DNA of 64,000 bases from Sphagnum magellanicum. Its lineage: Eukaryota > Streptophyta > Sphagnopsida > Sphagnales > Sphagnaceae. A program made the position numbers and the translations under genes. The DNA lies in the NCBI GenBank assembly GCA_021904315.1, contig CM038910.1, forward strand, positions 5,518,001-5,582,000, given 5' to 3'. Below the pieces are notes generated by a model that did not search any database, was not told where the DNA came from, and saw only the letters and a list, made by a program, of their open reading frames with translations. Below, piece after piece: positions 9,543-61,470 of the stretch (the stretch's first letter is position 1; every line of letters starts with the position of its first letter).

Positions 9543-11750
9543 CTATCTGTGTCTTCTCTGCATCTTGAAGCGAAGGACAAAGAAGGAGAGGATGCGATAG
9601 AGAAGCGCAAACCCCACCATGGTACCCACATCCACCCACTTCACATTGGATCTGTGAGCACCAGGAGTTTCCGCAATCAAACCCTGCTGCATCAGCACTT
9701 CGGATCCCGTGAGAGAACAAGGACCGTCAGGGAAGATGGAGGTTCCAGTACTGAAGCATTTGTCACTGACATGCGAGAATTCGTTGATGAGGAGCGACTC
9801 CAGAGGATACTTGTAGAGCGAGAGATAGTGCATGAAGAGCCAGTAGTTGGGCATGTTGCGCTTGGAGATGAAGAAACCGGAGAAGAGCCAAGAAGCTCCG
9901 AAACCTGCCATGGTGAGAGAATACGCGAGCTGGTAGCTGTTGCTGCGCACAAGAACGCCGAAGAAGGAGACATAGGCGTGCGCCACTACGAGAAGCAGCC
10001 AGAACACAAGCAAGAAGAAGAAGAAGGCAGAAGCTTGCGGCGCGAGTCCTACCATCCAGTACACTGGGAGACTGAAGAGCGCGGCATTGAGGAAGAGGAA
10101 AGGAAGGAAGACGAGCGTGTTGGAGACCACCCAGGAAGACATTCTGTAAGCTCCTCGCGAGGCTTCCCGTGCCAGGATCTTGCATTCTTCCAGCAAGCTC
10201 GGCAAGAGCTCCACTGTCGAGGTGAGCATGAGCGTGACGCTGAAAGCTAAGAAACCGTACCGTTCTGTGAAGCCGCGCATCCCATACCCCATACGCGAGA
10301 ACACGTTGCCGAGACAAACACCCGCGATGAGCGCATAGAGTGTCCGTGAGCGGAAGAGCCGCCGCGTTCTGTAGACATTCTTCGAGAATCGATGCGTCAA
10401 GACTGCAATCTCTTGTAGACTGGAATTCGCAAATGCGCATCTCGTGAGCGGCGCAAGCTGCGACGTTTCTTCTTCTCCTCCTCTGGAACATCTTTTCGAG
10501 CCGGGTTTGCAGCTCATGATGAGACAGGAAGCCGTCGAGGGTGTGGGTGATTGCCCGATCATCTCTTGCTCGTCTGGTGTGAGCATCTTTTGCAACCAAG
10601 GGATGGAAGCATTGGATCGATCTACATGCGAGAATCTGCTGTCATCGCAAGAGGTGGAATGGTCATGAGAGTGATCCGAGCTTGTGTCGATGAGATCGAT
10701 CGCGTACTCCAACACATTGACCTGTTCCGGGATGTCGTGACCGGAAGCCATGAGGATGGAGTGCAGATGCTCGAGAGAGCCGTGATGCACGACTTCACCA
10801 TGCGCGAGAAGAACGATCGAGTGCAGATGCTCGAGGATACGAAAACCGGGTTGATGGATACTGAGAATCACTGTGCGCATGTGCGTGACTGCCATCTTCC
10901 GCAGCATCGTCACGACATGGAGCGCAGATGTCGAGTCGAGAGAGGAGGTAGGCTCGTCGAGGAGCAGGACTGCAGGGTCATGGATCACGTCGATGCCGAT
11001 GGACACGCGGCGACGCTCGCCGCCGGACAATTGATCTCCGACTCGAGAGCATGCGACGTGTGATAGTCCGAGATCTTCCATCGTCGCGCGCACTCGCGCG
11101 AGCTTCTCCGTCATGGAGACGGAAGCCGGAAGACGCAGCCGTGCACTGTAGAGCAAAGTCTCTTCGACTGTCAGCATTGGGAACAGTGCGTCGTCTTGCA
11201 TCACGTAGCCTGAGATTCTGCGGAACTGTGGAACTTCCATAGCTAGCTGGTTCACTAGCAAGCTCGTGGGTGGACTGCTCGGTCGAATGCGCCCTGCGAC
11301 CACGTCTAGTAGTGTGGATTTCCCTGCTCCGCTCGGTCCTGCAATTGCTAGTACCTCGCCTGGTCGCGCGACGAAGCTCACATTCTTCAGTAAGTGTATG
11401 TAGCGAGTCGAGATTCTCGCAGCAGTTGCTGCCGCCTTCTCCTTGCTGCTGGTGCAATTTCTTCCTGATGTCAATCCCGCTTCAAAGAAGTTGCAGCTCC
11501 GAAGAAGAGATTTCAGCTTTGTTCCATTCTCCACTGGCTTCACAACTCTGTACGACAGCTCTCGAAGCTCGATCTCGTATCCCTGGAGGGCACGAGACAC
11601 TGCTGCTCCAGGCAAGAGCACCTCACTGGGCGAGCTGAGATCACTTGCTGCTGTTCCCAGAACAGAAATGCTTGCAGCAGCAGCACCTTCTTCAACGACA
11701 CTGGCTGCGGCGATGGTCCCCATATCAACACCGGCAACAAAAATGGGCAT
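9543..11750 (-). CDS. ABC transporter G family half-transporter (ABCG5-like), intronless
   Basis: A 735-residue reverse-architecture half-transporter (ATPase first, membrane domain second) that should dimerise in a membrane and export a lipid, wax or hormone-like substrate. Numbering from the ATG at 11750: Walker A GPSGAGKST at 138-146, Q-loop Gln185, signature LSGGE at 241-245, Walker B LLLDEP at 262-267, switch His at 299, a His/Asp/Ser-rich linker near 355-370, then about six hydrophobic segments from 470 to 728. Motifs such as THRFSKN, LLTST and the YISL/FKYP-like stretch resemble the ABCG5/ABCG10 group; substrate is not predictable. The open frame extends to 11882, but that codon is GTG and the extra residues are largely poly-Leu from a CAA repeat, so I start at the first ATG (11750); ATG at 11723 is an alternative. 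Odd: the stretch before the signature (VGDQLSGGE) is about four residues shorter than usual for this subfamily. Confidence 0.93.
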   Translation of the reverse strand: MPIFVAGVDMGTIAAASVVEEGAAAASISVLGTAASDLSSPSEVLLPGAAVSRALQGYEIELRELSYRVVKPVENGTKLKSLLRSCNFFEAGLTSGRNCTSSKEKAAATAARISTRYIHLLKNVSFVARPGEVLAIAGPSGAGKSTLLDVVAGRIRPSSPPTSLLVNQLAMEVPQFRRISGYVMQDDALFPMLTVEETLLYSARLRLPASVSMTEKLARVRATMEDLGLSHVACSRVGDQLSGGERRRVSIGIDVIHDPAVLLLDEPTSSLDSTSALHVVTMLRKMAVTHMRTVILSIHQPGFRILEHLHSIVLLAHGEVVHHGSLEHLHSILMASGHDIPEQVNVLEYAIDLIDTSSDHSHDHSTSCDDSRFSHVDRSNASIPWLQKMLTPDEQEMIGQSPTPSTASCLIMSCKPGSKRCSRGGEEETSQLAPLTRCAFANSSLQEIAVLTHRFSKNVYRTRRLFRSRTLYALIAGVCLGNVFSRMGYGMRGFTERYGFLAFSVTLMLTSTVELLPSLLEECKILAREASRGAYRMSSWVVSNTLVFLPFLFLNAALFSLPVYWMVGLAPQASAFFFFLLVFWLLLVVAHAYVSFFGVLVRSNSYQLAYSLTMAGFGASWLFSGFFISKRNMPNYWLFMHYLSLYKYPLESLLINEFSHVSDKCFSTGTSIFPDGPCSLTGSEVLMQQGLIAETPGAHRSNVKWVDVGTMVGFALLYRILSFFVLRFKMQRRHR

Positions 11751-12055
11751 TACAACGGAGATGTCACATTTGAGGCCTGGCAGCAGCAGAGTGGCAATGA
11801 GGAGGAGAAGAAGCAACAACAACAACAACAGGTCTAGATCTCTCAAGCTCCAGGAGATGGAAAAGCTTGAGCTTGCTTGCACACTGCCTCATTGCAAGTC
11901 TCCAGATTGATTGGTGCCCACATTGCTGCACAAACGATATGACAACTGCAGCGATGATCGGCTACTCGCATGCTGACTGAGGAGTTCCTGAAGATCAGAG
12001 GATCGCCATTGCTCTTGAAAGAAACATATGCGCTGAAGTTGTTCTTCTTCTGCTT

Positions 12056-45208: not shown

Positions 45209-46481
45209 CTACACATTGAGCCAGGAGTGTAGTTCAAGAACTCTGTCTGCCCAACAGAGCTGAACACCTGAAGACAAATCAAAAGTTGAGATGGGAGCTG
45301 TGCTGATTTATCTATAGATGCCTGTTAACACATACTGGTGCAGGAGCCAAAATTATGAACAGGGACAAATGCCCCTTGAGAGATACCTTCCAAGATTGGG
45401 CAACAAGGAGAAGGTGCATATCAACCAGAGAAGAAACCAGGATGAGCACAAATGAGGAACATGCCAGAAGGTGTGCTACAGCAGCTGGCCAGAGCACAAT
45501 TTTGACAAGCTCTGCTCTGAGAATTAAGTGCGTCTGTGGCTTTTAAGGTTAGGCCTTACAGCTGTGAGCTCCATATCTGAGCTACTCACACCAATAAGGA
45601 TCTGAAGCACCCATTAGTGCATTTCACAACCAGGATCTAATCAAGCTTGTCTTCTATTCATATCCTTCCAATTAGTCAGGTGCTTAGTCCAAAATGTAGG
45701 TACTCTACCAGGCATGGCAATGGCTTCCAATATGAGAATTTAGAACTCTCCATATAGGTGTGCAAATGAAATGTGGTTTAAAATCCAGTGTTGGGTGGGC
45801 ATTTGATGTTTTTTAATAAACACCAATTGCAGGTAGTTGAGAAATTCAGACGCAAGGAGCGGGTTCTGGGGATTTGAAGAAATCAGAACCAAACAACCAC
45901 GGTTCTGGGTATGTGAAAAAAATCAGAATGAAAGAACCACTGGTTTTGGTTATTTCAAAAACCTCAAAGAGCTGCAGGGTTTCATGAAAGAACCGGAAAA
46001 GAAGTGATGGTTTGTGGGCAATTATTTGACTTTGTGAAAGAATGAGGAAGGTGGTATATATCACAGCAGGGTATTTGATTTTTGAAGGCCAGCAAAAAAA
46101 TCACCCTCTCCAGACCCCACATTTTAGACCCCACTTGCAAAGCAGTAGGGGCCCTGCTGCGGAAATCCCGTTCCTCCACTCGTTTTAGACTCCAAGCGGC
46201 GTATAGTTTTCGTCGGTCAGCTGAATTGTTGACTTTGGGTCTGTCGGAGCCACCGTCTTTCTCCCCCATCTTCTGCCAAGCCTTTATGTTGTCACATCAT
46301 CCCACCTTGTGTGAGAGTGATCGAGACTAATTTTATCGGCTGTCAAGCATTTGCGCTCTTGACAAACTTTGATCCTCAATACTTGCTTGCAGGTTCAGTC
46401 TAGGCGGGATTGGATTAGTTTCGTCAGGTCGTCGGGGATCAGCTGCTCTAAGCTGAAGGCGTGCCAGCCGATTGCGCGATC
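45209..46481. other. Intergenic and 5' flank of the hydrolase-like gene
   Basis: Between 45862 and 45965 an imperfect 45-bp repeat recurs two to three times (GGTTCTGGG ... AAATCAGAA ... AAC(C)AC). From about 46,090 the GC content rises, with pyrimidine-rich words (TCTTTCTCCCCCATC) and conservation with 56,930-57,170, marking the probable promoter and 5' untranslated region of the gene starting at 46482. No TATA box is obvious. Confidence 0.5.
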
Positions 46482-49400
46482 ATGAGCCTTCAGGTGAGTT
46501 CTGGCTCCATTTTGCAAAGTGTTTTTTTTGTGACTTTGGGATTGTTGAACAAGTCCATGTGGAGTTCTTATTCATCCATGCGATCTTCGGTGTGGAGATT
46601 TTCAACAGGTCGTCAACTAATGAGTTCAGTTCTCCTACACGGCCAAGATGGGCTCTCGTTGTTTCCGACAGTTTTAGGGCTTTCGCATAGTTATTTGTAG
46701 TGTTAGGAAGATGAGCTGAGTTGATGATCTCATTTGGCAAAGCTTTGTGTTTTTGGTTGCAGATCATCCCGGTGATCACACGACTATGGCCGCCAGAAGG
46801 CGACAACAGGGTCACAAACATGGACGTCGTGTTCTTCAGCGACTTGGAAGATGTGGGGACTGCACCAAGGTCCTGGAATCACGGGGAGACATGGGTGCAG
46901 AAAGGGCATCCAGAGGTGTGTTGGCCCCGACAATGGCTACCGGAAGACCTCGGCAGCAATGTGCGAATTTTTGAAATTCGACCTTTTTATTTTGTCGTGT
47001 TAACCAGGGTTCTCGACCCCAGCGTCGGAGCACCAGCGTTGCGACAATTGGACAGGGTTGCCAGAGACTGGTAAGTGGTTGTGTGTTGTTTGTGCAAATG
47101 TAATGAATTTGGGTGCAAGTTAATTTGAGTAGCATAGAAGATTGGGTTAGACTTATTCCAAAAGGGGTGCACCCAGTTTGTAGCCTAAACCCCAAAGCAA
47201 TCCACCCCTCATGGCAAAATACCGGGGGGAGGAGAGGGGGAGGGGAGGGGAGGGGGGGGGGGGGGGGGGGGGGGTGGGTTTGGGTAGTAACCAGTCGAGC
47301 ATCCAAAATGCATTTCAAGACTTCCCAAATTTTCCCATGCCTTGCTTCTGAAAGATGTGATGTGATAAGAATTACGCCTTTTGTTTCTACACAACTTGTC
47401 ACTTCCAAATGGGTCATGGATGATAATGATGCTTGAAAGGTGACATTTTTTTTCTTACATCTTTTTTGGTGTGTCATGCTTCTTTTAGTCTTTACAAATT
47501 GCGCAAGGAATTTTCTATTGAATACGAACAAGATGGACAAGGGCGCCCATTGGTGTTCGTGGGACATGGTTATGGAGGCGTGGTGCTCAAACAAGTATTG
47601 GTTGAGCTTCATCATCCATCATGTGATTATCAAGACTTACGAAGACTTATCCATAAAACACTATGTGGCATAGTGTTTTATGGTGGAACCAACACAAAGC
47701 TCACAAACAAACATGGTCCGATGTTAATGGAGAATAAAGGTCGGTCTGTGAAAAACGTAAGCAGCTTGAAGTTTGAAAGTTTCAAGGATCGCTTGGTGTC
47801 TGAAAGTGTTGAAGATCGGTTGTCGAAGTTGTCTGAACACTTTGGAGCTGCCTTGGATTGGAGGAAGGTCAAAGTGTGTGTTGTTAATAAGAATAAGTCA
47901 TTTTTGCAGGTTTGTATTTTTTATCCATACTCCAATTAGTTGCTTATGATATGATGGGTACTTTGTAAGATCAATAGATATTATTGCAAAGGAACCTTGA
48001 GGTTGAAGAGTGAGCTACATTTCAAATTAGTCCATCAATAGCCTTTCATCATAAACTTGGTGGCCACACCAATTGATTAGGATGCCCTCTCCAATTTAAA
48101 CCTTCCACTTTTGGAAGGTGTTGCCCCTTACTTGATATAAGTTTTCTTTTGTCTTTCAAAAAAACCATTCCAAAGTATCCTAAGCACAATCCCTTTAGGA
48201 CCTTTGATTGCTCATTCTAGATAAAACTTTCATTTGAAAATTATTTTCTTTTTCACGAGTGTGATGTATTTATTTGGAGACTAAGGATTGTGCATTTTGC
48301 TATTTATATCTCACTATGATGGTCAAAAATGCCTTGTGGTGTAGCAAGTATCCTTGTTGGAGGTTATAATTGTTGACTAATAGGTTGGGTTTGTGTGTTT
48401 AGTTACCATTTTGTCCCCACTTCATTAGGCTATTTTGGAAAGCTTACATGTATTTGCAATTAATTTAATATTTTAGTCAAATAATTAGTTAGTTGGGAGG
48501 ATATTATATTGGCAAGCATTGTGCTTGAAGTTGTATTGACGAAATGATGTGTAGCATCTCCAACAATGTCCAATGCAAGGAGTAATTGGTGAGTTAGCCT
48601 ATTTCTTAATAGGTGAATGTGGTTTGCTTCAGAAAATCAAGGATTATTTTGATTTGGAACGTCAGTTTATTAATGTCATGGATAGTAATGACATTTGCAC
48701 ACCTACTTCCAAGGAAGACCCAAGTTATTGTACAATACTGGAGTTCCTACAACAATTTTTACCAAAGGGTCTACATCAAACAATTGATGACAAGAAGGTG
48801 ATGATCTTTCCACATCAAACTTTGAACTCATAATCCAACTTCATGCTATTTTACACATGCTTATTAACATCCTTTATATGTTTATGACATAAATTTAGTA
48901 CTTGAATTATATGCCACATTAGCCAACCAAATCTATGTGTTCTAGCTTTGACATAAATATGTGCACAGGGTCAAGAAGTTCGACTCAGATTGAGTGAAAC
49001 AAAAGATAAAGAGGCATTGGGAGACATGGAAATTGCTAGCACATCAACAAGAAAAAACAGGTACTGAAAGTTCATGACTTGATTTTGTTACACAATGTCA
49101 AGTTGTTAGATGATGAAAAAAACATCCAAGTCATTGCACATTTATTTGATCAAGTCAACATGTGTGTGATATTTTGCATTAGTTGCCAGCTTTATTTAAA
49201 CATTTAATTAAGTTCACTTTTTTAGTGTTATGTAGAAACATTCCATATTTGAATATAACAAATGAAATTTGTGCTTGTATTGGGTTTCATTGTATTCTCT
49301 TTAATTTGTAACTAATCTTCTATGTACATCATGTTGGGTAAAATAGGGACAAAGCAATGGATGAAAGACAATGTGTTGTCCAAGATGTTGTTTGCAATGT

Positions 49401-51099
49401 TGATGAAGACCATGATATGCTTACTGAAGAGGCCCACAAATTGCGAACATTCTTACGCGAAGAAATGAAAAGGGCTCAAGGGCACGAAGGTCCAACAAAT
49501 TTTCCAAACCTCCATGAACTTCATTCAAAGTTTTTAGAGGACACATCAGTTTTCGTAGGTGCAAGAAAAGTTGAAAAGGATTCCATTGAGTTCCTCTTTT
49601 TGGATGCACAATGTATGAGCAAGGTGGTGGGAGTGGGACTACACCAGGCCTTGGTTACAGTCACAAGTGATAATGATGTGAAAGTGGAGTCCCTAAGTGA
49701 AAGTGCTTGGAAATGTTCATTGGCCTCTATGTTCAAGGAAGTCCAAGATTTGGGAGCTTTTGAACTTATTGGTTTCAGGATGCGAAAGATGGAAGAGGAC
49801 AAGATCGAAACCATGAGTTTGCCATCCGCAGAACAAGTTTCAAAACAATTTGGAGTGGGTTTGAAAGATCGCATTGTTACAATTAATCGGAAGGAAGAAA
49901 TCAACATATTTTTTCCTGTGATATTGAAGGTGGCTGAAGTGTACAATGCATTGAAAGATGGTGATCCTTATGTGTCCAAACGACCTTCAGGAGTTGGATC
50001 ATCTACAGGTGCTTCAGGAGCTTCATCAAGTGGAAGCAGTCAACAGGGGAAGGAGGAAGGTAAAAGTGTACGAAGTTGGTCACTATGGAAGCCATCAACT
50101 TGGTGGGAATATGGGAAGGGTGATGAAAAGGATGACGAAGGCAAACCACCTGGTGGGGATCCACCCCCTAATTCTGGACCTTCAAGTGAACCAGAAATGG
50201 TTCCTCGTACATACACAGTGAAAGTCTATCCAGGGGCTGGGTGCAAATTCCGTGATGCTAGAGAGATTCCACCCGAAATCAAGACCGCGTCTATCTACCC
50301 AGAGTTGACAATTGTGTTTTTTCGAGACAAAACAGGGACTAAATTCCTTAATGTGACAACACAAACACAATGCAATCTTGGTGATGATGCAGTTACTGAA
50401 GATTACTTTGGGTGGTTCCAAGATGATATCATGATTTCTTTTAGGGGGTCTTTACCAGAATGCGAAGGAACAAAGCTAAAAGATTTTAGTGCAAGTGGTC
50501 AAGGGGGTGAGAAGGGCGAACTCACAAAAGAAACAACAAACATAACTTTGGGGGGTTCTACAAGTGTTGCTAACCTAGAGTCCAGGGGCATGTTTGGTCA
50601 AGGTATGGTTGCAGGTTCTGGAATACAAGTTCAAGTTCGAGAAGACACAACAAACACTTTTGGGCAAAATTCCTCGAGGGTTGACACTGAAGAAATAATA
50701 GGTGTGAGACAAATTGGAGGCTTCGAAGTCCATAATCACAATTGGGAAGAAGTTTTGAAGTATAAGTTTTGCATTCCAAGAGGGATTAGGAATAGCAACA
50801 AGCCTATGAGATTCTTGCGATACAAAGATACTTTCACACCAATAATTGTTGGCAAATGGGATGTATCCAAGGAGAATGCCTCTGAAGCAGCTAACTACAC
50901 TTTTAAGGTGGAAAGGCACCTGTTTCACATTGAACAAGGTGCAGTCACTTTTGGGAGAGGACATTTGCAAGATTATGTGCTAGAAATGTTCATTAATCTT
51001 GCAATGACACACTTGGATGGCTTGTGCTCAGATGAAACCATTGTAATTTGTGGGCCAAGCTTTGTTGACCGAGCAATCCAAGTGTTTCCTATTCAATAA
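46482..51099 (+). CDS. SERAC1-like pseudohydrolase fused to unknown C-terminal domains, six exons
   Basis: Exons: 46482-46493, 46763-47070, 47489-47909, 48555-48797, 48969-49060, 49347-51099; GT-AG ends and phases all agree, giving 942 residues. Residues 5-250 follow the order of a SERAC1/PGAP1-like alpha/beta hydrolase: DVVFFSDLE (26-33), WPRQWLPEDLGSNVRIF, PLVFVGHGYGG (127-137), GIVFYGG (167-173). The catalytic motifs are changed: the usual HG after the first strand reads SD, and the GHSxGG nucleophile elbow reads GHGYGG, so catalysis is unlikely. Residues 432-562 contain two related about 60-residue repeats (SKVVGVGLHQALVTV; SKQFGVGLKDRIVTI). Residues 572-642 are a Gly/Ser/Pro-rich linker with a Trp cluster. 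Residues 647-942 form a domain I do not recognise. No P-loop, NB-ARC, LRR, signal peptide or membrane segment is seen. This hydrolase family heads some NLR proteins of bryophytes; an immune or scaffold role is inference only. Exon 2's end is the least certain part. Confidence 0.8.
47223..47286 (+). repeat. G-rich tract with a 23-base G run, inside intron 2
   Basis: GGGGGGAGGAGAGGGGG, then AGGGGAGGGG, then an unbroken run of 23 G at 47252-47274, then TGGGTTTGGG. It lies in intron 2 of the hydrolase-like gene, on the transcribed sense strand. It has strong G-quadruplex potential in DNA and in pre-mRNA. It causes spurious poly-Gly and poly-Pro frames. The exact length of such a run is error-prone in assemblies. 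Confidence 0.9.
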
Positions 51100-56898: not shown

Positions 56899-56929
56899 AC
56901 TCAGTGGAAAAACACCCTTACTTTTGTTC

Positions 56930-57352
56930 TTTCGCCGTCACTCTCTTCCGCCTCAATCTTCTTTCAAGGCTTTTCGTCATCACATCATTCCAGCTGGGAG
57001 AGAGATCGAGACTAGATTATCAGCTGTCAAAGCATTTGCTCGCTCGACAAACCTTCGTCCTCAGTACTTGGTTGCAGGTTCAGTCTAGACGGCATAATTG
57101 GATTCTGTTTTGTCAGGTCATTGGGATCAGCTGCTCTAAGCTGAAAGCATGCCAGCCAATTGCGCGATCATGAGCGTCCGCGTCCTTATGAGTTCTGGCT
57201 CCATTTTGCAAAGTGTTTTTTTCTGAGTGTCGGATTGTTGAACGAGTCCATGTGGAGTTCTTATTCGGCAATGCGATCTTAGGGGTGGAGATTTCATCAG
57301 TGCGTAGACTAATGACTTCAGTTGTGTGGCACAGTGTTTTATGGTGCAGTTC
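56930..57352 (+). pseudogene. Fragment of the hydrolase-like gene: 5' region, exon 1 and a piece of exon 3
   Basis: 56930-57320 matches 46250-46640: the leader, the start-codon region (GATTGCGCGATCATGAGC versus ATTGCGCGATCATGAGC here) and intron 1. Exon 1's donor is lost: after ATGAGC the copy reads GTCCGCGTCCTTATGAGTT in place of CTTCAGGTGAGTT. From 57323 a short stretch (GTGTGGCACAGTGTTTTATGG) resembles exon 3 at about 47664-47684, suggesting a deletion from intron 1 to exon 3; this last match is short. The copy also has an ATG where the intact gene has GTG 21 bases upstream of its start. Confidence 0.7.
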
Positions 57353-60374: not shown

Positions 60375-60420
60375 GTAGTTCGAAATCTTCAAGTTGCAGC
60401 CGGAAGAGTTGTAGAAGATC

Positions 60421-61470
60421 ATGACGTTCAAGAATCGGCCGGTTCCGGCCGCACCAAGTCGAGGTCTTTCGTCGACAGTAGTGTACATCTCCATCATCTT
60501 CGTGCTCTCGACTTACGTGGCCGTCGACTTCTCCAAACACCATTCTTCTGAGTTCCGCTTTGCCAGTTTGTCGGAAGCTGTTGAAGCTCCATCAAAGTTG
60601 GCGGCGACAGCGGCCTCGGGAGCCGTGTCGACGCAACCAGCTGAAGACGACATTTGTAACTCAGTGTTTGGTCATCTTCCCGAACACCGATCATCGCAGC
60701 AGCAGGAAGCAGATCCCTGGGATCAGATGAAATGGATAGGAAAACCGGCGAGATGTCGAGTCAAGGGGGAACTGATCGAGAATCTCGACGAACACTACAA
60801 CTTCCGTCGCGGTTACGCGTTGAAGTTCACGGCAGACGTGGAAGACAAGACGCATCTTCTTCCCTGGCTTCTGGGAAGCAAGGTGAATCTGAATGCGCGG
60901 GCGAGACGAGTGTACCTGGACCTGGGTGCGAACGCCTTCGAGACGAGCATTCAGTGGTTCATGCGCTGGTACCCTTGCGACTTCACGGAAGTCCATGCCT
61001 TCGAGATCGACCCGCAGTTGTTCAAGCTTCCGGAAGTGGAGTTCGCTGAAGACGACAATGTGGAAGTACCGAATCCGCGTGCGATCGTCGCGAAGCAAAC
61101 TCCCGGAATTCCCAACTGGATGCTTCAGAGGATGACGGTCTACAACCAGTTTGTGTCGGATGCGGACGACGACGCCACGAAAGCTGTGAACATCACCAGA
61201 TTCATGAAAGAGACGCTGAACCTCTCCGCGTCCGACACTGTGGTCGTGAAGATGGATATCGAGAGCACAGAATGGCCGATACTGCAAAGATGGTTGGAGG
61301 ATCCGCAGATGGCTGACATCGTCGACGAGCTTTTCGTGGAGATTCATTTCCAGCATCCTTCCATGTCCGCATTCGGGTGGGATGGTTTTGCTCCAAGTAC
61401 TCGTGATCAAGCTTCCTACTTGCTCGCTTCCTTGCGCTCTAAAGGCTTCGTCGTGCATCCCTGGCCTTGA
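60421..61470 (+). CDS. FkbM-like methyltransferase, type II membrane protein, intronless
   Basis: 349 residues starting at ATG 60421. Residues 19-37 (VVYISIIFVLSTYVAVDF-like) form a single signal-anchor helix after a basic N-terminus (KNRP...SR), predicting a Golgi/ER type II protein with its catalytic domain in the lumen. A Ser/Ala/Gln-rich stem runs to about 100. The methyltransferase core shows motif I VYLDLGANAFE (164-174), the acidic end of strand 2 in AFEID (193-197), VVVKMDIESTEW (274-285) and ELFVEIHF (303-310), as in FkbM-type and related plant methyltransferase-like proteins of unknown substrate. Intronless and GC-rich like the ABCG gene, in contrast to its AT-rich surroundings. Transfer is not implied, since both resemble plant genes. 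The substrate is unknown; a sugar or cell-wall glycan would suit the location but is inference. Confidence 0.85.
   Translation: MTFKNRPVPAAPSRGLSSTVVYISIIFVLSTYVAVDFSKHHSSEFRFASLSEAVEAPSKLAATAASGAVSTQPAEDDICNSVFGHLPEHRSSQQQEADPWDQMKWIGKPARCRVKGELIENLDEHYNFRRGYALKFTADVEDKTHLLPWLLGSKVNLNARARRVYLDLGANAFETSIQWFMRWYPCDFTEVHAFEIDPQLFKLPEVEFAEDDNVEVPNPRAIVAKQTPGIPNWMLQRMTVYNQFVSDADDDATKAVNITRFMKETLNLSASDTVVVKMDIESTEWPILQRWLEDPQMADIVDELFVEIHFQHPSMSAFGWDGFAPSTRDQASYLLASLRSKGFVVHPWP

Follow-up and report, generated by a model that had tools for sequence, protein, structure and literature searches.

What does a moss gene do that joins a hydrolase-like region, devoid of its catalytic residues, directly to a long C-terminal tail? 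The gene in question occupies positions 46482..51099 of the + strand in a 64,000-nucleotide stretch of Sphagnum magellanicum DNA (the window, positions 5518001-5582000 of contig CM038910.1, here C4), within a genome of 438,994,042 bases on 31 contigs. An earlier note on this stretch, made from the letters alone, had seen an undescribed-looking fusion of six exons and 942 residues: a dead SERAC1-like hydrolase followed by no NB-ARC or leucine-rich repeat (LRR) domain, then a duplicated module, a Gly/Ser/Pro linker and a C-terminal domain that it could not place, with an immune receptor or decoy as the suggested role. From a comparison across the genome we favour, tentatively and at a little less than even confidence, a pseudo-hydrolase sensor or decoy that carries a tail associated with nucleotide-binding leucine-rich repeat receptors (NLRs); we infer its immune function and its pairing through the tail from the company that the tail keeps.

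The hydrolase-like region and its NLR relative

The N-terminal region can be understood through a relative, locus L026, which lies 20.9 Mb away on the same contig. There, hydrolase exons, an NB-ARC exon (E 3.2e-34) and an LRR exon follow one another, and the LRR and a copy of the tail are held within one 1280-residue frame. The joined hydrolase exons of L026 match Pfam DUF676 at 24.4 bits (cut-off 20.3), and the target aligns with them over the full length at 28% identity (alignment A2). The introns inside the hydrolase have phases 2 and 0 in both genes, at positions about a dozen residues apart in A2.

The two proteins differ at the sites where activity would reside. Where L026 has a His-Gly pair, which we take to be the oxyanion motif, the target has Ser-Asp; the nucleophile motif GYSFGG has become GHGYGG; and the segment NHLTIC, with the likely catalytic His, reads DSNDIC, a site located by its distance from the shared IC, since MAFFT leaves gaps in these columns. 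The exchange of the nucleophile Ser for Gly recurs in nine of nine copies of the gene in which this motif is covered; L014, the tenth, lacks coverage there. With Ser, His and His-Gly all changed, and the Ser lost throughout, the subfamily appears to consist of pseudo-hydrolases, and an active hydrolase was rejected because the GxSxG nucleophile and the catalytic His are both absent. The N-terminal part is, by these alignments, a degenerate SERAC1/DUF676-type hydrolase, and the dead hydrolase of the earlier note stands. It resembles the SERAC1/DUF676 putative serine esterases in its overall alignment to the L026 hydrolase, and is unlike them in the changed residues and in matching no Pfam hydrolase model.

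Intact hydrolase exons of the L026 type gave at least 138 genome matches (136 of 867 candidates scored), 59-100% identical and spread over 17 of the 31 contigs, and hydrolase-NLR-type genes look, on this count, strongly amplified in the genome. Several such exons adjoin NB-ARC matches, for example at C17:15661153 and C17:15662501.

The tail family and its partners

The gene proved not to be a one-off. Ten hydrolase-tail copies including the target were found, at least two of them broken, and the tail itself recurs in dozens. A genome search with exon 6, which encodes it, returned at least 78 matches (75 of 118 candidates scored), and merged tail matches make up 80 loci: 47 reach 1200 nt or more, 16 measure 700-1199 nt and 17 are shorter, all lower bounds. 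The 46 long loci reported leave out of the 47 a tandem array on contig 3, and some contain stops. This array (C3:1967556-1969985) has nine matches about 284 nt apart, each covering the opening 36-53 residues of the L026 tail with 62-81% identity.

An alignment of 18 tails (A1, made without L014 and L016, which are partial or broken, and L020, which has stops) contains 29 invariant columns, and the target shows the A..MSK..GVGL motif, the Gly/Ser/Pro-rich linker that the earlier note had seen (here residues 541-615) and the N..MTH-type C-terminal domain of the family. Scans of these 18 tails against Pfam and NCBIfam gave nothing convincing (best E 0.14 and 0.1), PHROGs gave no match to the target's tail (residues 395-916), and a profile search of PDB sequences found none up to E 10, so the C-terminal domain is as hard to place as it had seemed. 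No bacterial or viral relative was confirmed by tblastn among 162 bacterial-contig and 22 viral-contig stretches picked out by short conserved patterns, and no paper on the tail was found among the titles and abstract openings listed from the open-licence PMC literature. Two single-sequence AlphaFold2 models were of low confidence (pLDDT 32 and 29) and unusable. Together, the copies point to a sizeable protein family that has no Pfam model. The duplicated module of the earlier note was rejected as a domain duplication. It amounts at most to a repeated 15-residue motif, A..MSK..GVGL, with profile scores of 16.4-16.9 against shuffled maxima of 12.8-15.9 (4 x 40 shuffles); an earlier split gave 4.9 for the repeat, below the 18.6 and 21.2 of two among its 30 shuffles, which makes even the motif repeat statistically weak and not clearly above chance.

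We surveyed upstream DNA at 20 loci whose tails fall outside the hydrolase subfamily (L018-L037), a part of the family, in stretches of 2.3-3.4 kb in all for L030-L032 and of 6-7.5 kb for L029 and L033-L037. By Pfam, a partner over the cut-off is present at 11 of the 20, with NB-ARC at four (L018, L026, L029, L037) and LRR frames at five (L026-L029, L037). LRR and tail lie in one open frame in L026, L027 and L028, and in L029 and L037 the tail is downstream of NB-ARC and LRR frames. One stop divides two frames in the LRR region of L029 and part of the LRR of L028 sits in a separate upstream frame; these two may be damaged copies, or the pieces may be spliced. An 875-residue frame of L030 combines the tail with the C-terminal part of a WRKY domain (27.2 bits, cut-off 21). 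Other upstream frames, possibly separate genes, encode ankyrin repeats (L019), WRKY and AP2 (L021), bHLH (L024), a kinase besides the NB-ARC (L018) and phloem protein 2 (L020). Not counted as partners were kinase-like pieces in L022 and L025 and a bHLH-like piece in L035, all seen by eye, and two similar HMA-like pieces upstream in L036 (C2:32583300-32589300) that fall under the Pfam cut-off (15.3-15.4 against 24.8 bits).

Single open frames join the tail to LRR and WRKY sequences; to NB-ARC genes it is linked by position. For 30 loci, chance would place NB-ARC within 9.5 kb upstream 0.12 (p 8.7e-6) or 0.33 (p 3.6e-4) times, against the four cases seen. These two values assume 380 NB-ARC genes (the candidates, 125 of them scored) and 1000, respectively; the chance figures spanned 0.07-0.33 across three settings, with one earlier setting besides (four run). 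This sharing suggests that the tail is a common immune module.

Divergence in the tandem cluster and the competing readings

The target belongs to a tandem cluster: seven more copies, one of them with a frame break, lie on its strand within about 210 kb. In exon 2, which encodes the N-terminal half of the hydrolase, comparison of the target with six cluster paralogs gives a nonsynonymous divergence (dN) of 0.13-0.19 and a synonymous divergence (dS) of 0.015-0.066, with an intron 2 difference of 0.031-0.049; in the cluster, nonsynonymous divergence is two- to fivefold that of synonymous sites plus introns. Against synonymous sites plus intron 2, the six comparisons yield p values from 8e-10 to 2.7e-4. 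Across all pairs, dN exceeds dS in 24 of 28 (Fisher p<0.05 in 11 of 28), and three pooled sets of disjoint pairs give p values of 1.6e-6, 2.6e-9 and 7.4e-10 against synonymous sites plus introns, and of 0.012, 0.0011 and 0.00012 against synonymous sites alone. These tests were made without L013, whose exon 2 has an internal repeat expansion, and L014; the pools comprise seven sequences and omit L017. The expansion in L013 (C4:5667000-5675000, at 2327-2788) is of an acidic VFFSDLED motif. Conserved and variable blocks alternate within exon 2. The nonsynonymous excess points to diversifying selection, and the tandem copies and exon 2 excess together are those of an R-gene-like cluster.

We therefore propose that the target encodes a probably intracellular protein whose N-terminal part is related to the hydrolase domain of moss hydrolase-NLRs but catalytically dead, and is joined directly to an NLR-associated tail. 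The pseudo-hydrolase part may offer a surface, as sensor or decoy, for contact with partners that evolve fast, probably microbial effectors; the tail may pass recognition on to immune signalling, in the simplest case by pairing with, or regulating, NLRs that have the same tail. Neither decay nor ordinary metabolism fits tandem, fast-evolving dead hydrolases joined to a tail found on NLR-type genes as well as an immune sensor or decoy does. In this form the immune-receptor or decoy idea of the earlier note survives in part: the homology to the L026 hydrolase, the tail behind NB-ARC and LRR elsewhere and the exon 2 excess in the cluster back it. The exon 4 border and the duplicated module of the note did not hold, nor is the fusion a single case.

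A number of results weigh against this reading. The 916-residue protein has no Pfam match at E up to 10, which bears out that no NB-ARC or LRR follows in this gene and also means that no hydrolase model passed; two joined paralogs of the target gave weak alpha/beta hydrolase matches, all below the cut-off. Its phase 2 intron falls outside the phase 0 description of hydrolase-internal introns in liverwort HNL genes (excerpts of Xue et al. 2012, PMC3352924). Among the 81 listed hydrolase places of hydrolase-NLR type that were compared, L026 alone has a listed tail within 15 kb, so the tail is an exception among hydrolase-NLRs. Nine of the 20 surveyed tail loci (L022, L023, L025, L031-L036) show no partner over the Pfam cut-off among the upstream frames scanned, and an upstream partner could be a separate gene unless one open frame holds both. 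The exon 2 excess is missing from the divergent L017 (p=0.73) and from single pairs such as L010-L012, and for exon 3 there is no such general trend (dN above dS in 14 of 36 pairs; one of 36 at Fisher p<0.05). The intracellular location would follow from inspection by eye, which showed no obvious signal peptide. Finally, the C-terminal part of the tail also diverges fast (dN 0.10-0.37 and dS 0.05-0.47 without L017; 0.10-0.40 and 0.055-0.52 with it), which would allow recognition to reside in that part; there, synonymous change is mostly higher than that of the introns, which differ by 0.018-0.11 between the target and the cluster copies and by about 0.3 for L017.

This last point leads to the alternative that the tail is the recognition part, comparable in its position to the post-LRR domains of plant TIR-NLRs, and that the dead hydrolase merely regulates or anchors. 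The position of the tail after the LRR in one frame (L026, L027, L028) or downstream of NB-ARC and LRR (L029, L037) would suit it, as would the finding that the C-terminal part is the most divergent region between most cluster copies. We consider it unlikely: the excess of dN over synonymous and intron change sits in exon 2, whereas dN/dS for the whole tail against the target is 0.68-1.12 (1.89 for the C-terminal part alone in the closest pair, target and L009), and the core motifs of the tail are conserved from LRR to WRKY loci. In the C-terminal part of the tail, the synonymous change beyond that of the introns points to exchange between copies, and the mixed pattern suggests such exchange as well as selection.

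Alternatively, the cluster may be decaying, a set of hydrolase-NLR remnants that have shed NB-ARC and LRR and are under relaxed constraint. Lost catalytic residues, the stops or frame break in L014 and L016 and a tail dN/dS near 1 in several pairs are all what decay would leave behind. It would not be expected to leave a tail frame of 558-620 residues open in eight copies, splice borders that persist, or an exon 2 in which conserved blocks alternate with variable ones and nonsynonymous change exceeds, rather than equals, the neutral rate, and we regard it as distinctly unlikely.

The tail has evidently been shuffled, since near-identical copies sit behind unrelated upstream sequence. Between L021 and L023, a stretch of 2.3 kb is 96% identical; it starts abruptly at the tail, and the sequences ahead of the tail are unrelated. 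The tails of L018, L019 and L020 share 93-95%, and upstream of them lie NB-ARC (L018), ankyrin repeats (L019) and other sequence (L020); the stretch common to L018 and L019 starts about 500 bases ahead of the tail frame. In a maximum-likelihood tree of 27 tails (midpoint-rooted, without L014, L016 and L020, and with L029, L030 and L031 as long branches of unsure place), the hydrolase subfamily (eight rows) forms one clade, L018 and L019 adjoin this clade (100/100) and NB-ARC-bearing loci fall on four separate branches. Partner labels change 10 times on this tree, against a shuffled mean of 16.7, two of the labels (PK, of L022 and L025) having been assigned by eye. A mobile exon that lands behind many genes and confers no common function would produce sharp borders and close identity of this kind; the dispersal of hydrolase-NLR-type exons over the contigs and the contig 3 array agree with it too. 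Yet no transposon-type domain was detected in the 18 tails scanned (transposon ends were not searched for), NB-ARC partners occur above chance and many long copies are open, so that we think this explanation improbable.

Least probable is an executor role for the C-terminal domain, which might for instance be a beta-hairpin domain that inserts into membranes as in pore-forming proteins: the low-charge Ser/Thr/Gly/Asn-rich stretch with alternating hydrophobicity at residues 735-775 presumably resembles pore-forming hairpins, and yet pore-forming families in Pfam or PDB give no sequence match, the fold models provide no structural support and a WRKY fusion fits poorly.

Gene structure and place among known systems

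All joins of the six exons have GT-AG borders and are in phase, in agreement with the earlier note, and among nine paralog loci (L009-L017) most show exons 2-6 in the same order with the same border types. The ATG of exon 1 and its GT donor align with all eight paralogs tested, and the codons between them vary; borders that are conserved while codons vary are good evidence, from comparison, of a real coding gene. The length was revised from 942 to 916 residues. In the longer model exon 4 began at 48555, after an acceptor 78 nt upstream that ends at 48554. We rejected it because homology starts exactly at the 48633-type acceptor in six of nine paralogs (L010, L011, L014, L015, L016, L017), and in the other three (L009, L012, L013) the best match starts at residue 8 of the exon. 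In exon 5, identity over 30 residues is 87-100% for L009-L013, L015 and L016, 90% for L014 (which has one stop there) and 42% for L017. L014, in which exon 2 is not recognisable, exon 5 has the stop and exon 6 is partial, and L016, with a frame break in exon 6, look broken.

Table 1. Exons and other features of the pseudo-hydrolase gene, in window positions; residue numbers refer to the 916-residue product.
Feature	Position	Strand	Description
Exon 1	46482..46493	+	Met-Ser-Leu-Gln
Exon 2	46763..47070	+	Degenerate alpha/beta hydrolase, N-terminal half; dN excess in tandem cluster
Ser30-Asp31	46838..46843	+	Replaces His-Gly of L026 (alignment A2)
Exon 3	47489..47909	+	Hydrolase core, including nucleophile elbow
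GHGYGG	47562..47579	+	Nucleophile Ser replaced by Gly; GYSFGG in L026
Exon 4	48633..48797	+	Hydrolase end; start corrected from 48555; cag acceptor
Ser265	48684..48686	+	Site of likely catalytic His; DSNDIC, against NHLTIC in L026
Exon 5	48969..49060	+	Short connector
Exon 6	49347..51099	+	Tail exon; within a single 585-codon open frame
Tail, first part	49531..49968	+	Residues 395-540
Motif A..MSK..GVGL	49606-49641; similar motif 49828-49863	+	In first part of tail
Gly/Ser/Pro-rich, acidic linker	49969..50193	+	Residues 541-615
Tail C-terminal domain	50194..51096	+	Residues 616-916; conserved G.[FY][QH][DN]..IS and N..MTH-type motifs
Ser/Thr/Gly/Asn-rich stretch	50521..50673	+	Residues 725-775, in C-terminal domain; partly low charge, alternating pattern

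Intron 2 contains a long G run at about 47250-47275. An 80%-identical second copy of 46232-46631 (exon 1 with the region before it and a part of intron 1) lies at 56920..57323 on the + strand; elsewhere in the window no match to the protein was found (E up to 1). The window also holds a long open frame of ABC half-transporter type (ABC_tran, ABC2_membrane) at 9543-11888 on the minus strand, and a 351-residue frame at 60415-61470 on the plus strand with a DUF7870 match barely over the cut-off (28.7 against 27 bits).

According to excerpts of Chia et al. 2024 (PMC11218826), Sphagnum has hydrolase-NLRs, and NLR integrated domains, with kinases and transcription factors among them, have expanded in Ceratodon and Sphagnum; the terms 'C-terminal domain' and 'post-LRR' are absent from the main text of that paper. 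The target is like the HNL or Hyd-NLR proteins of bryophytes (excerpts of PMC3352924 and PMC11218826) in its N-terminal alpha/beta hydrolase with introns inside that domain, and L026 of the same genome is a Hyd-NB-ARC-LRR gene with the target's tail. It is unlike them in having no NB-ARC, LRR or catalytic residues and in joining the hydrolase directly to the tail. Its kinship to the HNL hydrolase is indirect, through the L026 alignment and the intron phases; lacking NB-ARC and LRR, it is better regarded as a derivative architecture than filed as an HNL.

NLRs with integrated domains or decoys (Chia et al. 2024, PMC11218826; Sarris et al. 2016, PMC4759884) offer a second comparison. As in these, the tail keeps company with other domains, with WRKY in a single frame (L030) and with ankyrin (L019) or kinase plus NB-ARC (L018) in frames upstream of it, and exon 2 evolves in the manner expected of a part that would face effectors. 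The difference is that the target and L030 carry their candidate bait on the tail module, and no NB-ARC or LRR was seen in either: the target is not a bait fused to NB-ARC-LRR, although its tail is common to NB-ARC and LRR loci. The third comparison is with TIR-NLRs of plants, which carry post-LRR or C-JID domains. The tail is like these in its position after the LRR in L026-L029 and L037, and unlike them in being much longer, in occurring also without an LRR and in having no Pfam match, Pfam presumably including a C-JID model.

The integrated decoy is a central idea of plant immunity that has been studied mostly in flowering plants. We can envisage, as a speculation that is unlikely to hold, that Sphagnum uses 'decoys in trans', in which a common tail would dock separate bait proteins (the dead hydrolase, WRKY, perhaps ankyrin and others) onto NLRs. 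Such an arrangement predicts binding of tail to tail and, if true, would mean that decoys are swapped by 3' exon shuffling rather than built into each NLR. A tail common to NLR-type genes, WRKY sequences and a fast-evolving pseudo-hydrolase cluster in a peat moss would show another connection between bait and receptor, far from the angiosperms.

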